This document shows positions 58,531 through 64,000 of a stretch of DNA of 64,000 bases, piece by piece. The translations under genes and the position numbers were made by a program. The notes under the pieces were generated by a model, which searched no databases, was not told where the DNA came from, and was given only the letters and a program-made list of their open reading frames with translations. Source of the DNA: Geoalkalibacter halelectricus (lineage in GTDB: Bacteria; Desulfobacterota; Desulfuromonadia; Desulfuromonadales; Geoalkalibacteraceae). Location of the stretch: contig NZ_CP092109.1 in assembly GCF_025263685.1 (NCBI RefSeq), positions 2,109,001 to 2,173,000 on the forward strand. The letters run 5' to 3'. Numbering within the stretch: the first letter of the stretch is position 1; each line of letters opens with the position of its first letter.

Positions 58531-58913
58531 CTCCGAGTCAGCCGGGATCGGCACGGGTATAATTGGGGAAAGATTGTTTTTCTGGATTATCATCCTGTCG
58601 ATCCTGTGTATCCCTGTTTTCATAAGAGCTTTTTTTCGAACGCAGATCAGGGCGGAAAAGGGCGGATAAAGGCAGAAGATTTGAAGTTTTGTTATCGGTT
58701 TTATCCTGTTCATCCTGTCCATCCCTGTTGATTTTGGTGGTCGAATTGGGCTCTTAAGTGGGGAAATGAGGGTGGTTTCGGGTTGGATGTGTTGCAAAAA
58801 CGGCTTGTTGGCTTGGTCCGACCCCGGCGACCGCCAATTGGTCCGACCCCGGTGACCACCATTTGACTCCCGAACCCAACGTTCCGCGTTCCTGTTACCG
58901 GAAGAGGAAATCA
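58531..58913. other. 383-bp intergenic region of degraded repeats
   Basis: No gene is supported. It contains two versions of a dispersed ATCCTG(T)xATCCTG-type repeat (58,596-58,622 and 58,706-58,737), a GAACGCAGAT repeat fragment at 58,639, and the IS-end-like direct repeats at 58,813-58,861. The HEPN gene starts at 58,914. Confidence 0.65.
58813..58861. repeat. Two 24-bp direct repeats, IS-end-like
   Basis: Two tandem units TTGGTCCGACCCCGG then YGACCRCCA, 25 bp apart (58,813 and 58,838), differ at two positions. Short repeated units of this kind are common at insertion-sequence ends. No transposase gene is present, so this would be a remnant. The family is not identified. Confidence 0.5.
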
Positions 58914-59339
58914 ATGGCTGAAGATTCTCGCTGGGTACAGAGATTCAATCATTTCAAAAAAGCCTACGCTCAATTACAGGAGGCGCTTGAACTTCTCGCA
59001 GCGCGTGAATTGAGCAATATAGAAAAACAAGGGGCTATTCAGGCTTTTGAGTTTACCTACGAGTTGGCCTGGAATGTTCTGCGAGATTATTTGCTCTGGC
59101 AAGGGGCTGAAGTCATTTCAGGTTCACGTGACGCAATTCGTGAGGGCTTCAAGCGTGAATTGATTTCCGACGGACATGGGTGGATGGCCATGCTGCAGGA
59201 TCGAAATCGAACCGTTCATACCTATAATGAGGAGACGGCCAACGAAATCCTACGGAACCTGGAAAACCGTTATAGCCGGTTGTTTGCCGAATTCTACCAG
59301 TCGTTCCAGCAAAAAGCATCGGACCAGGGGCTTGGCTAA
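58914..59339 (+). CDS. HEPN-domain toxin candidate (nucleotidyltransferase substrate-binding, HI0074 family)
   Basis: A 141-residue helical protein with the HEPN RNase-type motif R-x4-H at residues 97-102 (DRNRTVHTY) and the HI0074 pattern (AIQAFEFTYELAWNVLRDYL, GSRDAIREGFKRELI). GAGGAAA precedes the ATG at 58,914. It ends where the MNT gene begins, the typical HEPN/MNT toxin-antitoxin order. In studied pairs the HEPN protein is a ribonuclease or tRNA-directed toxin, silenced by AMP transfer from the MNT partner; activity here is inferred. GC is visibly lower than in the core genome. Confidence 0.9.
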   Translation: MAEDSRWVQRFNHFKKAYAQLQEALELLAARELSNIEKQGAIQAFEFTYELAWNVLRDYLLWQGAEVISGSRDAIREGFKRELISDGHGWMAMLQDRNRTVHTYNEETANEILRNLENRYSRLFAEFYQSFQQKASDQGLG

Positions 59340-59657
59340 ATGAATAAAGCCTTTGGCCTGCCCGCTCAGGACAGACAAAAAATTATTTCAGTTTTTCAGA
59401 AATTTCCAGAGGTCGAACGGGTCGTTATTTATGGCTCACGCGCCAAAGGCAATTATCGCCCGGCCTCTGACATCGACCTGACCATTATGAGCAGGGTGGA
59501 CTGGCAGACGTTTTTAGCGATAGAAAACGCATTGGATGACGTGCTGCTACCTTATAAGATTGATCTTTCGATTTACGACCAGATCGACAATCCTGACTTG
59601 ATTGATCATATTCAGAGGGTTGGTGCTGTTTTTTACGAAAAGGAATCCGGAAAATAA
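59340..59657 (+). CDS. MNT-type minimal nucleotidyltransferase antitoxin candidate
   Basis: A 105-residue protein with the nucleotidyltransferase core VVIYGSRAKGNYRPASDIDL (Gly 32-Ser 33-Arg 34, Asp 44 and Asp 46) and no other domain. Its start follows the HEPN stop with no gap. The pair would be a toxin-antitoxin module in which this protein nucleotidylates and neutralises the HEPN toxin. Confidence 0.9.
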   Translation: MNKAFGLPAQDRQKIISVFQKFPEVERVVIYGSRAKGNYRPASDIDLTIMSRVDWQTFLAIENALDDVLLPYKIDLSIYDQIDNPDLIDHIQRVGAVFYEKESGK

Positions 59658-60182
59658 ATTCGTCCCCCTTTTATTGAAGGGGTTCAAGATCTTTAAGGTC
59701 ATTTTTTTGAACGCAGATAAAGGTGGATTCACGCAGATGAAAACATTAAATTAAAACCACGAAGCTTTATCCGGGTAAACATTGCGAATTTATCGGTTTT
59801 ATGCTTTTGATCCTATCTGCGTTCACAAAAAGTTTTCCTCTGCGTTTTTTTGGTCTTGAGCGAGCACAGCGAACGGGCGTGAGGCAGGTTTTAAGGTTCG
59901 ATTTGCGCGCAAAGCCGCCAAGGCGCAAAGAGAGGCATGGACCGAATGCGGGCAAGGTTGGATGAAGGGCTTGTCAACAATAAAGATTTGCCCCCCCAAA
60001 AAAAACAGATAAGAGCGGATAAAAGCGGATAAAATCTGGAAGAGCTAGGGGAAGAGCAAGTTTTTTGGTTTTAACTACAAGAGCAGGATTTGCCTTTAAG
60101 TGTGCCTGGAAGGGCTGCAACAGTGCACGCCCTTCCAGATGCTTACTGTGACTGATTTGCTGGAAACGATTCCGGCCCCACT
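59658..60182. other. 525-bp intergenic region with repeat debris and a strong hairpin
   Basis: No gene is supported. It contains dispersed GCAGAT and GCGGATAAAA repeat fragments (59,711-59,745 and 60,004-60,040), an AAAGCCGCCAAGGCGCAAAG unit near 59,912 and a 33-bp hairpin at 60,106-60,138. No promoter is clear. Confidence 0.6.
60106..60138. repeat. Strong stem-loop
   Basis: CTGGAAGGGC and GCCCTTCCAG pair perfectly; inside them TGCA-acag-TGCA extends the stem to 14 bp with one bulged C. There is no T-tract, so a simple terminator is unlikely. It lies 76 bp from the palindromic element end at 60,214. Confidence 0.65.
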
Positions 60183-61503: not shown

Positions 61504-61974
61504 CTATCGAGGCATTTTTGATTTCGTAATTTCATCATGCTTAGCGAGTTGAATCTTCATCAGTGTTGAGGGCAGTCCCAAAGAAAGCATAAACGCCGTG
61601 ATAGCTGTGCCCAGATAAACCCGTTCCATCCAGATTGCCAATTCGGGCAACACTTTCCCGACAAGACTTGCGGCCAGCACTAGTCCCAGAGTAACAAGGT
61701 AAAGAATGAACATCCACTTTTGGCGAACGAGTTGGTTGAAGATTTTTTCTCTGCCTTTTTCGTTGGCCCTCCAACTACGCCCGTAAAATGCGCTTGGGTC
61801 ACCCATCATCGTCATGATTGCGACAAGGAATCCGGCAAGAATCGAAAAAACAGTGACAATAACGTTGATAGCCATGTCATTGCCATGAATCAACGGCTGG
61901 CCCAAAATTGCACCAAGAACTCCAGCAAGAACCGAAAATCCAAAAAAAACAAGGCGCGTCCAGGAGATAGTCAT
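61504..61974 (-). CDS. Four-helix membrane protein of a candidate defence pair
   Basis: A 156-residue membrane protein with four predicted helices (residues 7-25, 34-57, 88-107, 116-136) and a charged cytoplasmic loop (WRANEKGREKIFNQLVRQK) between helices 2 and 3. No known domain is recognised. The architecture resembles KwaA, the membrane component of the Kiwa anti-phage system, but so would other small four-helix proteins; residue-level similarity could not be established. The gene follows the 311-residue gene after 3 bp and is translationally coupled. GC is low compared with the core genome, and a strong terminator follows. Confidence 0.7.
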   Translation of the reverse strand: MTISWTRLVFFGFSVLAGVLGAILGQPLIHGNDMAINVIVTVFSILAGFLVAIMTMMGDPSAFYGRSWRANEKGREKIFNQLVRQKWMFILYLVTLGLVLAASLVGKVLPELAIWMERVYLGTAITAFMLSLGLPSTLMKIQLAKHDEITKSKMPR

Positions 61975-61977
61975 ACG

Positions 61978-62913
61978 CTATAGCTCCAATAGTCCAGCAT
62001 CCTTAAGTTCATAATAATATTGCTCAAGGGCTCGCCACGCATCACTGCAAAATACCGATTTTCCGTGCTTTGCAAGAGAGACTGTCTTTCTCAATGTGAT
62101 GTCACTGCCTTTAATGGTCTCCCCGCCAAGGGTTTCAATAGTAAACCCCTCGTCCCCATCTTCAAGCATCTGGTTCGCAAGAGATTCGATGCTCTGACGA
62201 CCAAGGACGCACCCCTTCCGTCTGCTGTCATATTTTAGGATTATCTGTGCACTGAGGTTTTCAGCTTGTTCGAGTTGCTCGACATCCTGGTCTTCGAAAA
62301 CCAGAGCCTTGATCTCGTCCATCAACTTGCCACCGATTCTTTTCCTGACGGTTGTCCTCTCAATATGATCCAAGGTTGCGTCAAATAATGTCGCATTCAG
62401 ATTGATCGACCGGACGCCTTGGCTCTGGATAAGGCGAACCTTGTCAATATCGGCCCTTTTGCATAGGCTGAACTTGGAAGCGTTGGTATCGATTTTTGCT
62501 GAATCTATGATGTCGTTCATGTACCGCTCGGCCTTTTTTTCGTGGAGATTAGATGAACATAAAAGGACGTGGTTGCCGGAGACCAGTGCCATAATGTCTC
62601 CATCCATGAACTCACACTGATCCGGAGGAGGAATTGTAGTAATCTCAGCTGGATCTGTACCACTTGCAACGGGAACAACTGAGGCGTGCTCGCCCGGCGT
62701 GTATGCTGCTATGTGCAGCAGAACACCTAGTGCATCTTGGATTTGGTGTCTCCTGCATTCAAGTACAGGATGCCCCGGAAGCACCACGCGACGCTGGGCG
62801 ATTTCAGGCAGCTTGGTGTGGGCTTCAGCAAGATAATGCTCGAGGGTATTTGAAACCGGCACAAAATACTCTGCCTTGCGGTAACTTAGGGTTTTTTTCT
62901 TTTCGTCTGACAC
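61978..62913 (-). CDS. Uncharacterised 311-residue soluble protein of a candidate defence pair
   Basis: A 311-residue soluble protein starting at GTG with AAAGGAGGGG four bases upstream. No transmembrane segment or known motif is recognised. Visible blocks are an N-terminal mixed alpha/beta region (RRVVLPGHPVLECRRHQIQDALGVLLHIAAY), DGDIMALVSGNHVLLCSSNLHEKKAERYMNDII, a charged helical middle (VRSINLNATLFDATLDHIERTTVRK), and a C-terminal helical region (WRALEQYYYELKDAGLLEL). The size and coupling to a small membrane protein recall KwaB of the Kiwa system (about 315 residues) or other soluble-plus-membrane defence pairs, but the gene order is reversed relative to the described kwaA-kwaB, and no residue match is claimed. 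GC is low. Confidence 0.65.
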   Translation of the reverse strand: MSDEKKKTLSYRKAEYFVPVSNTLEHYLAEAHTKLPEIAQRRVVLPGHPVLECRRHQIQDALGVLLHIAAYTPGEHASVVPVASGTDPAEITTIPPPDQCEFMDGDIMALVSGNHVLLCSSNLHEKKAERYMNDIIDSAKIDTNASKFSLCKRADIDKVRLIQSQGVRSINLNATLFDATLDHIERTTVRKRIGGKLMDEIKALVFEDQDVEQLEQAENLSAQIILKYDSRRKGCVLGRQSIESLANQMLEDGDEGFTIETLGGETIKGSDITLRKTVSLAKHGKSVFCSDAWRALEQYYYELKDAGLLEL

Positions 62914-63007: not shown

Positions 63008-64000
63008 TCAGGGATCGAACCGCAACCTTGCCACTTCGAACCCTCCGTTCTCGTAGAGTTGCCCATTTTCCTCCCGGAACATGACGAAGGACTTTTTGCC
63101 GGGATTGTAACCAACCATGAAGGCTGTGGCGTATTCCCGATGACGGGCCGATGCTTTGGCGCGGTCGTAATGTTGGATCTGTGGACCCTTGACCTCCACC
63201 AGCGCTAAGCCGTAACCGATTCGCCGGTCCTTCACGGCAACGATAAAGTCCGGGAAAAAGCCGCGCCCGTGGGACCATCCATAAAGCCCGACGGACGTCG
63301 ACTGCTGGCTCGGATTGCGGTGCCACCAGAGAACGTCCTCATCAATGTCCAGCAGTTCGGCAAAGCGGCGCTCGTCCGGGTTCAGGTCAGCGGGAAACAC
63401 CCCGTAGAGGTTACGTTTGGCCGGAGAGAGCCGCAGGTCAGACCGGACTTCCTCGGGCAGGGCCACTTCTTCGACCACAAGCTGAGCGGCCCGGCACTTG
63501 CGCACGGCCTCGACGATCAGCTTCGGGTTGCGCACTAGGATCAGGTCGAGCTGCTGCAACAACTGCTCGTCATCCTCGGGGGGATCGTAGCCGCCGTTCT
63601 CCAGGGCCTTGCGGAAACGGTCACGAAGCAGGCGGGGGAAAGAAAAACGGTCCACGTCGAATTGGAACACCAACTGCTTGGCCTTGGCAGCAATGGCTTC
63701 GGGCGAGAGAGATGCCCATTTCTCTTCATCGACAATGTCGCTGACCGCAAAGATTTCCTGGGTTCGCTGCACCACTTTGGCCCGCACCCGATCCTTGTCT
63801 CCCATCACCGTCATGAAGTCGATTTGTGCCGCAACCTGCTCCTCATAGTCGTCCGGCTGGGGCGGCATCCGCTCGGTCAGCAGGATCGCCGGTCCATCGG
63901 GCCGCCGCCGGTAGGTGTACTCGGTGCGAGCATCGTTGGCCAGAACGGATGTCAACAGGGAGTCCGTGGTCGGCTCGGGGGAAGCAAACGGGTTGTCCAG
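63008..64000 (-). CDS. Helicase-associated PD-(D/E)XK nuclease, C-terminal part (gene runs off the window)
   Basis: An open frame of about 330 residues, continuous to the right edge without a credible start, so the gene begins outside the window. The C-terminal region has the nuclease core GFFPDFIVAVKD then LALVEVKG (Asp, Glu-x-Lys), preceded by LNPDERRFAELLD and WWHRNPSQQ, as in the C-termini of type III-like restriction or DEAD/DEAH-box helicase-nuclease proteins. The helicase motifs would lie in the unseen part. It is on the same strand as the two-gene pair and 94 bp upstream of it, so it may belong to the same defence locus. Confidence 0.75.
   Translation of the reverse strand: MDNPFASPEPTTDSLLTSVLANDARTEYTYRRRPDGPAILLTERMPPQPDDYEEQVAAQIDFMTVMGDKDRVRAKVVQRTQEIFAVSDIVDEEKWASLSPEAIAAKAKQLVFQFDVDRFSFPRLLRDRFRKALENGGYDPPEDDEQLLQQLDLILVRNPKLIVEAVRKCRAAQLVVEEVALPEEVRSDLRLSPAKRNLYGVFPADLNPDERRFAELLDIDEDVLWWHRNPSQQSTSVGLYGWSHGRGFFPDFIVAVKDRRIGYGLALVEVKGPQIQHYDRAKASARHREYATAFMVGYNPGKKSFVMFREENGQLYENGGFEVARLRFDP

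Follow-up and report, generated by a model that had tools for sequence, protein, structure and literature searches.

A probable diverged RexAB-type phage-exclusion module in a low-GC chromosomal island of Geoalkalibacter halelectricus

Background

What is the function of two short, tightly coupled genes that stand beside a restriction gene in a 64,000-nucleotide (nt) stretch of the Geoalkalibacter halelectricus chromosome (contig NZ_CP092109.1, positions 2,109,001 to 2,173,000; hereafter the window)? The pair encodes a soluble protein (gene A) followed by a small membrane protein (gene B), and a preliminary description of the window had put it forward as a candidate anti-phage system, possibly of the Kiwa or Olokun type. 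We conclude, with a probability of roughly three in four, that the two genes form a phage-exclusion (abortive-infection) module of a diverged RexAB type, which spread with temperate and often transposable (Mu-like) phages and resides here in a chromosomal defence island. This reading is based on the predicted RexA fold of A, its pairing with a four-helix protein, and the repressor-first gene order seen in relatives.

Work on RexAB began with Benzer's T4 rII observation, and what triggers the system is, to our knowledge, not established. The DefenseFinder authors found RexAB mainly on prophages (PMC9090908), and a 2026 paper counted only five described Rex-like systems (PMC12894663).

Results and discussion

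The gene pair in the window

The two genes and their expression signals are as follows:

62913-61978, minus strand: gene A, 311 amino acids (aa), GTG start, soluble, RexA fold predicted
61974-61504, minus strand: gene B, 156 aa, ATG start, four predicted transmembrane helices, RexB-like
62926-62918, minus strand: Shine-Dalgarno sequence of gene A, AAGGAGGGG, read from the sequence
61408-61386, minus strand: intrinsic terminator 3' of gene B, 9-pair GC stem and T-run

The earlier account of a low-GC, tightly coupled pair with a ribosome-binding site and a terminator of its own is borne out. Reading of the open reading frames (ORFs) places A first on the same strand, 3 nt ahead of B, and the pair has a GC content of 47.7% vs 63.3% for the window. 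The Shine-Dalgarno sequence ends 4 nt ahead of the GTG codon of A, and TTTTTCTTT follows the 9-pair GC hairpin, past the end of B. A terminator scan over 2 kb returned 4 terminator-like sites vs 2.4 expected by chance, and the call therefore relies on the quality and position of the hairpin and not on the number of sites.

Gene A is predicted to have the fold of lambda RexA

The AlphaFold2 model of A (mean predicted local distance difference test score, pLDDT, 91.2; predicted TM-score, pTM, 0.83) was compared by Foldseek with 350,542 PDB chains. Lambda RexA was the sole significant match (8twq_B, E 6.1e-5, and 8twq_A, E 1.6e-4, both at probability 1.00), the next chain having an E-value of 1.1e-2 and a probability of 0.25. 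By VIA-align, 8twq_B obtained a Z-score of 11.6 with a root-mean-square deviation (rmsd) of 3.1 over 146 residues, followed by IML3 (4it3, Z 7.7), 8ovw_N (Z 7.5) and CENP-N-type chains (Z 5.9-7.0). Models that have no true match commonly reach a best Z of 7 to 8 in this comparison, and RexA is therefore the one row that is distinctive. We take 8ovw_N, chain N of the yeast constitutive centromere-associated network (CCAN), to be CHL4; the assignment of CCAN chains to CHL4 and CENP-N is partly our own reading. The crystal paper on RexA names RdgC, IML3 and CHL4 as relatives of its fold (PMC11077077).

In the same paper, lambda RexA is described as having a globular domain in two segments (residues 1-139 and 248-279), between which a dimerisation domain is inserted (143-234) (PMC11077077). 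The model of A presents its elements in the order seen in RexA, with strands and helices up to about residue 151, an inserted unit at about 155-284 and a final helix at 288-304, which by our reading would correspond to a split globular domain (about 1-153 and 285-310) enclosing a predicted dimerisation domain (about 155-284). A search of BFVD with A yielded five matches at E-values of at most 1e-3, all of them uncharacterised phage proteins (best E 5.2e-11), and RdgC of Serratia phage JS26 reached only E 0.26.

Genes A and B form a conserved module

The AlphaFold2 model of B contains four long, membrane-length helices and a C-terminal helix (pLDDT 82.6), in agreement with the four-helix membrane protein of the preliminary description. 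Relatives were sought with A and B by tblastn in 72,556 plasmid records, with A in genomes, and by pattern scans for B. These scans used a motif from helix 2 of B, so that diverged members are missed and part of the invariance of FSILAG stems from the search itself. The scans yielded 36 confirmed loci on viral contigs and 42 on genome contigs, 72 of these 78 being non-redundant after copies with at least 98% DNA identity were merged. The FSILAG motif in helix 2 of B is invariant in all 62 aligned proteins, the scans that found the others having required it.

Directly upstream of B, an A-like ORF or a piece of one is present in 36/36 viral and 40/42 genome loci. A small four-helix membrane protein is thus encoded directly with A at 76 of the 78 loci, a pairing far beyond chance that defines A and B as a conserved two-gene module. 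The two loci at which no A was called are at contig ends: L076 offers just 77 nt ahead of B, and L047 retains a weak trace of the A C-terminus (E 0.019). At L020 and L077 gene A runs off the contig. At four of the 76 loci (L023, L045, L055 and L067) B stands beside only a C-terminal piece of A, the N-terminal part not being found although the DNA read upstream extends over 117 to 763 nt or more; L055 and L067 lie near contig ends, and these pieces may be broken copies, assembly breaks or a reduced form.

The distribution of the module is patchy. Gene A was found in five plasmid records and B in the same five, adjacent and in the same order in all three records inspected, and a diverged A query had no match among the plasmid records. 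Among 98 related genomes, two carry A, the window's own included, and the three carriers among 277 genomes of the class comprise these two and one more. The preliminary description had taken a predominance of single housekeeping homologues as grounds for abandoning a defence role; the homologues are instead sparse, paired and often phage-borne. Genome copies belong to Pseudomonadota, to relatives of Desulfuromonas and Geobacter, and to one bin placed in Myxococcota. The 50,697 annotated phage records contained no match to A, B or two diverged A proteins, and a scan of viral contigs with a single A protein found no relative.

In a tree of 66 A proteins the window copy groups with those of L007 and L008 (support 99/89), followed by the Desulfuromonas (99/97) and then the Geobacter copies (100/99). 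The nearest kin of the window protein are thus the repressor-associated copies on the transposable-phage contigs L007 and L008.

An A profile matched 7 of 298 genomes in all and brought out five diverged members in Pseudomonas (L095-L099, E 6e-17 to 3e-4) that share the module's layout and match A as a profile at 99% probability. In all five the A-like gene is followed by one for a different small hydrophobic protein, as judged by eye; unlike in the window family, this partner lacks FSILAG and the A-like proteins are longer. Three of them (L096, L098 and L099) match phrog_3482, and the diverged RexA-like genes of L096 and L099 lie near repressor-type genes.

Several relatives are carried by phages, behind a repressor

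Neighbouring genes were named by PHROG scans of cluster representatives, eight phage clusters being named in this way and a ninth, c23, by eye. The named neighbours include the large and small terminase, portal, minor head protein, head protease, transposase, DNA-transposition protein, endolysin and repressors. At least one of the nine clusters, which are phage markers in common with transposable phages, is present at 19/36 viral loci, 8/42 genome loci and 22/72 non-redundant loci, and a transposition-type cluster (c11, c21, c22 or c23) at 14 of the 78 by our own count; it is from this gene set that we call the carrier phages Mu-like.

In several relatives the pair lies downstream of a repressor. 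At L043 the order is repressor, a gap of about 30 nt, A and B; L022 and L011 are also repressor-led, and L007 (with a transposase) and L008 (with a DNA-transposition gene) have a repressor-led run in which other genes intervene. A regulator of cluster c9 or c24 stands upstream on the same strand within 2.1 kb at 10 of 83 mapped loci (L006, L011, L018, L019, L021, L022, L024, L043, L053 and L058), L006/L043 and L018/L019/L053 being copies; the upstream regulator of L007 and L008, recognised by PHROG, comes in addition to these ten. Matches to phage repressor/regulator PHROGs were obtained for the upstream gene at L007, L008, L018, L022, L024 and L043. Other genes likewise separate the Rex-like pair from the repressor in the phages Sbash and Butters (PMC11077077).

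The repressor-A-B order of several relatives is also what favours an alternative in which the pair mainly tunes the lysogeny switch of its carrier phage, exclusion being a side effect and the chromosomal copies relics. Lambda RexA does bias the CI/Cro switch. This explanation appears unlikely, since copies without a listed repressor are found on a Ketogulonicigenium plasmid (beside restriction genes) and on a Sinorhizobium plasmid, the window copy stands beside type III restriction genes and likewise has no listed repressor, and in loci such as L036, L038 and L080 the pair is embedded in the head-gene block. The position between the minor-head gene and the protease was seen at L036-L038, L080, L081 and L083.

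The Ketogulonicigenium copy (L002, K. vulgare plasmid pYP12, 244 kb) has annotations of a restriction subunit S, a DNA methyltransferase, a helicase and a GIY-YIG nuclease near the pair. At L009, L010 and L012 the pair precedes the terminase/portal block and is read in the opposite direction to the phage genes around it.

A gene of an endolysin family, named from its L019 member, adjoins the pair at L014, L018-L021, L048 and L053, and at L018, L019 and L021 the pair lies between the regulator and the endolysin block. Together with a weak match of the B member at L082 to a holin PHROG (E 1.9e-4), this could suggest a role of the module in lytic growth, with B acting as a holin or other lysis protein and A as a late protein of the phage. 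The window B matches no holin family, L082 being the only other member so compared; the position of the pair varies between phage groups, no recognised lysis gene stands beside the inspected plasmid copies or the window copy, A has the RexA fold, and B travels with A and not with the endolysin. We consider a lysis module quite improbable.

Comparison with named families and systems

Nothing above noise was obtained for the window proteins in Pfam, NCBIfam or PADLOC, A matching no PADLOC model at E-values of up to 1 and B only noise. Gene A matches three PHROGs of unknown function, phrog_26543 (best, E 1.1e-28), phrog_3482 and phrog_23561, and the window B has no PHROG match at E-values of up to 0.01. 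Searches with 63 A proteins gave two chance Pfam matches, each in one member, and a PADLOC match to GajA in one member (E 0.0022). With 62 B proteins, PADLOC models matched at most two members each (best E 4e-4), and Pfam returned 35 unrelated membrane families, MFS_1 being the commonest (11/62) among the 25 listed and the best E-value of all families 4e-5; we regard both sets as hydrophobic-helix noise. Sequence searches of the PDB returned a heat-shock protein (0.012) and a TRAP protein (0.051) for the A alignment, neither of them credible, and none for the B alignment.

The pair has in common with Kiwa a layout of one soluble and one four-helix membrane protein, the feature behind the initial proposal of a diverged Kiwa-type (KwaA/KwaB) or Olokun system. 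That proposal is not supported: across the 63 A and 62 B sequences PADLOC gave scattered weak matches only, the sole significant fold match in the PDB is RexA, and the soluble gene precedes the membrane gene at 76 loci. PADLOC presumably includes the Kwa models and may include those for Olokun. An assignment to either system now seems very unlikely.

Among the described Rex-like systems, lambda RexA/RexB shares with the pair the RexA fold, the gene order (the soluble protein, then a small membrane protein with four helices) and, for several A/B relatives, the location downstream of a repressor; it differs in having no detectable sequence similarity and another PHROG, and the window copy lies in the chromosome next to type III restriction genes, with no recognised repressor. 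The pair of Pseudomonas putida prophage P1 (RexABpp, PP_5643/PP_5644), recognised by HHpred and by structure (Dali Z 8.8 to 8TWQ), consists of a RexA-like soluble protein and a four-helix membrane protein near a CI-like repressor; compared by description only, its membrane protein is longer than the 156-aa B, a mutation at residue 181 having been reported (PMC12894663). Sbash gp30/gp31 is a further Rex-like pair, known to us from papers only.

The actinophage pairs CarolAnn gp44/gp43, Toast gp42/gp41 and Butters gp30/gp31 also encode a soluble and then a membrane protein, in other hosts and with no sequence link for A. For B, hhalign gave a score of 27.6 against CarolAnn gp43, Toast gp41 and Butters gp31, which was reached by 0/120 local column shuffles (maximum 23.2; reversed 20.1), and the alignment sets FSILAGFLVAIMT of B, the stretch with FSILAG, in register with the helix-2 stretch MSIVSGVLLAL of CarolAnn gp43. 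The score of B against the Pseudomonas partner proteins was reached by 2/120 shuffles. The weak similarity between B and the actinophage RexB-like proteins is no more than suggestive of a link. A literature search turned up no description of the A/B family, bioRxiv and most subscription papers being outside its scope.

Weighing the RexAB assignment

Several results weigh against the RexAB assignment. The RexA two-domain fold is present in the A model at a whole-chain TM-score to 8twq of only 0.34-0.39. RexA was crystallised in a closed form that is expected to open for DNA binding (PMC11077077), and the low scores are perhaps due to a different hinge angle, with the domains swung apart. Foldseek found no significant PDB match for B (best E 0.98), the identity of which rests on layout, helix count and weak similarity. 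Neither protein shows a sequence link to the lambda RexA/RexB family: hhalign gave a probability of 0.1 for A (63 sequences) against lambda-type RexA (4 sequences) and 0.9 for B against lambda-type RexB, the score of the latter comparison being reached by 20/120 shuffles, and lambda RexA falls in phrog_12654 and not in the PHROGs of the A family (phrog_26543 and phrog_3482). Addition of the actinophage and Pseudomonas members gave no profile link to lambda-type RexA or RexB either. In a control at the same settings, lambda-type RexA against CarolAnn gp44, Toast gp42 and Butters gp30 reached a probability of 1.2; since these accepted members are also unlinked to lambda-type RexA, the hhalign test cannot discriminate. 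The narrow lambda RexA sequence family is the wrong place to file the pair.

The genomic evidence contains further points of this kind. The window copy itself has no recognised phage repressor or phage structural gene alongside, the carriage behind a repressor being seen in several relatives. No common phage or defence context was found at 24 of the 42 genome loci. Their neighbours (up to three proteins per side, 115 in all, each 80 aa or longer) fall into 104 Pfam and 93 PHROG families, and the 25 most frequent include ResIII and DEAD twice each, AbiEii, Resolvase and integrase once each, and ordinary metabolic genes. Because almost no family is shared among these neighbours, there is no strong defence-island enrichment at the 24 loci.

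The remaining point concerns RdgC (2owl_B), which is present among the structural rows with a Z of 5.1 and an rmsd of 10.4 over 201 residues. It shares its fold with RexA (PMC11077077), and A could accordingly be viewed as an RdgC-like recombination regulator that acts on host or plasmid recombination and has an unrelated membrane partner. The structural match to RdgC alone proves nothing: its Z of 5.1 compares with 11.6 for RexA and ranks below profilins and other unrelated chains, and a fixed four-helix partner is a feature of RexAB. We judge this explanation very improbable.

The surroundings of the window copy

The pair is flanked by genes outside the module:

63008-64000, running past the window end, minus strand: type III restriction Res-like protein, C-terminal part (PADLOC REase_III)
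58863-59657, plus strand: HEPN/MNT-type pair (Pfam PF08780 and PF18765)
71043-71119, beyond the right end of the window: tRNA-Arg

The restriction-type gene and the HEPN/MNT pair noticed earlier are recognisable by family models, the former by REase_III for 63008-63955 (E 2e-6) and the latter by NTase_sub_bind (E 3.5e-42) and Polbeta (E 2.9e-19). Mobile-element debris, also mentioned in that account, is in part supported by dispersed repeats near the HEPN/MNT pair, at 58728-58826 and about 59814-59995 (in the region of about 59.7-60.0 kb), which have many copies in genomes G003 and G005. Gene A starts 94 nt past the stop codon of Res, and because no convincing promoter was found in this gap, A may share a transcript with the upstream Res gene.

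To the right of the window, the same strand encodes the remainder of Res (its portion outside the window had no PDB match), the type III methyltransferase Mod (PDB matches to 6k0w and EcoP15I chains), an ORF without a PDB match that we read by eye as GIY-YIG-like, and a 592-aa protein, after which comes the tRNA-Arg. The window pair sits in a low-GC island that ends at tRNA-Arg, beside a type III restriction system. The 592-aa protein (L115:4352-6127, minus strand, beyond the window) is related to two solved chains, an 'Active helicase' (5dgk) and a 'Pathogenicity island protein' (8tch); this hints at a present or former mobile element of satellite type next to tRNA-Arg.

In a comparison covering 9 to 20 kb beside the tRNA, the homology of three same-genus genomes to this genome starts only at 70952-71024, at the tRNA-Arg. 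One of them, G003, carries a type I restriction methyltransferase beside tRNA-Arg (L125:17475-19289), in place of the type III restriction system and the Rex-like pair. On account of these two observations, defence genes appear to be exchanged at the tRNA-Arg site, which is possibly a defence hotspot. The region to the left of the island was searched for an att copy of the 3' end of tRNA-Arg; positions 50000-71040 contained no exact match of at least 10 bases counted from the last base of the tRNA and no shared 15-mer. The counterpart of the window's left flank in G003 is on a different contig from the tRNA-Arg site.

A model of RexAB-type exclusion

The present analysis shows the predicted fold of A and the predicted four helices of B, a gene order that is fixed with A first, and relatives that lie behind repressors or in prophages. 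The rest of the model would follow by analogy with the lambda and P. putida RexAB: that A dimerises and binds DNA, that it activates B, that B forms a pore, and that growth arrest is the outcome. In this model A would be a RexA-like sensor that forms a dimeric clamp on DNA without sequence specificity and responds to a DNA or protein-DNA structure arising from the replication or recombination of another phage. Once triggered, A would act on B, the four-helix inner-membrane protein, which would assemble into a pore and damage the membrane, so that growth would halt before the phage matures.

The P. putida RexAB, recognised by the same kind of evidence, has been shown to defend; overproduction of its RexA stops growth, but only in cells that have RexB; leaky membranes are seen in a subpopulation, with no depolarisation detected, and RexA complementation in trans failed to restore defence (PMC12894663). 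The roles are reversed in Butters, where the effector is the soluble protein (PMC12894663; PMC7542560), and such an opposite wiring may also apply to the present pair. The general idea of a soluble sensor with a membrane effector, a candidate for anti-phage defence, is sustained by the RexA fold, the steady pairing and the prophage, plasmid and restriction-island contexts, although the systems first named for it are not. Anti-phage defence by A and B is plausible, and the best model for it is RexAB rather than Kiwa or Olokun.

A broader proposal, which we find evenly balanced, is that the family represents a separate, large and undescribed Rex lineage. It would combine a RexA-fold clamp with a membrane partner that has an FSILAG core in helix 2, would move among transposable phages, plasmids and chromosomal defence islands, and would act as stand-alone defence outside prophages by sensing phage DNA metabolism and firing a membrane pore.

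Conclusions

By combining structure prediction with the comparison of genomic contexts, we tentatively assigned a two-gene operon of G. halelectricus to the RexAB type of phage-exclusion modules. The 72 non-redundant loci provide a depth of sequence that lambda RexAB lacks in the collections searched, where it is represented by 19 phage records of nearly all the same sequence. Both proteins thereby yield conserved positions, and a possible pore-lining role of helix 2 of B becomes directly testable. Finally, the family places Rex-like modules outside prophages and beside restriction systems, which suggests that they may act as defence genes in their own right.

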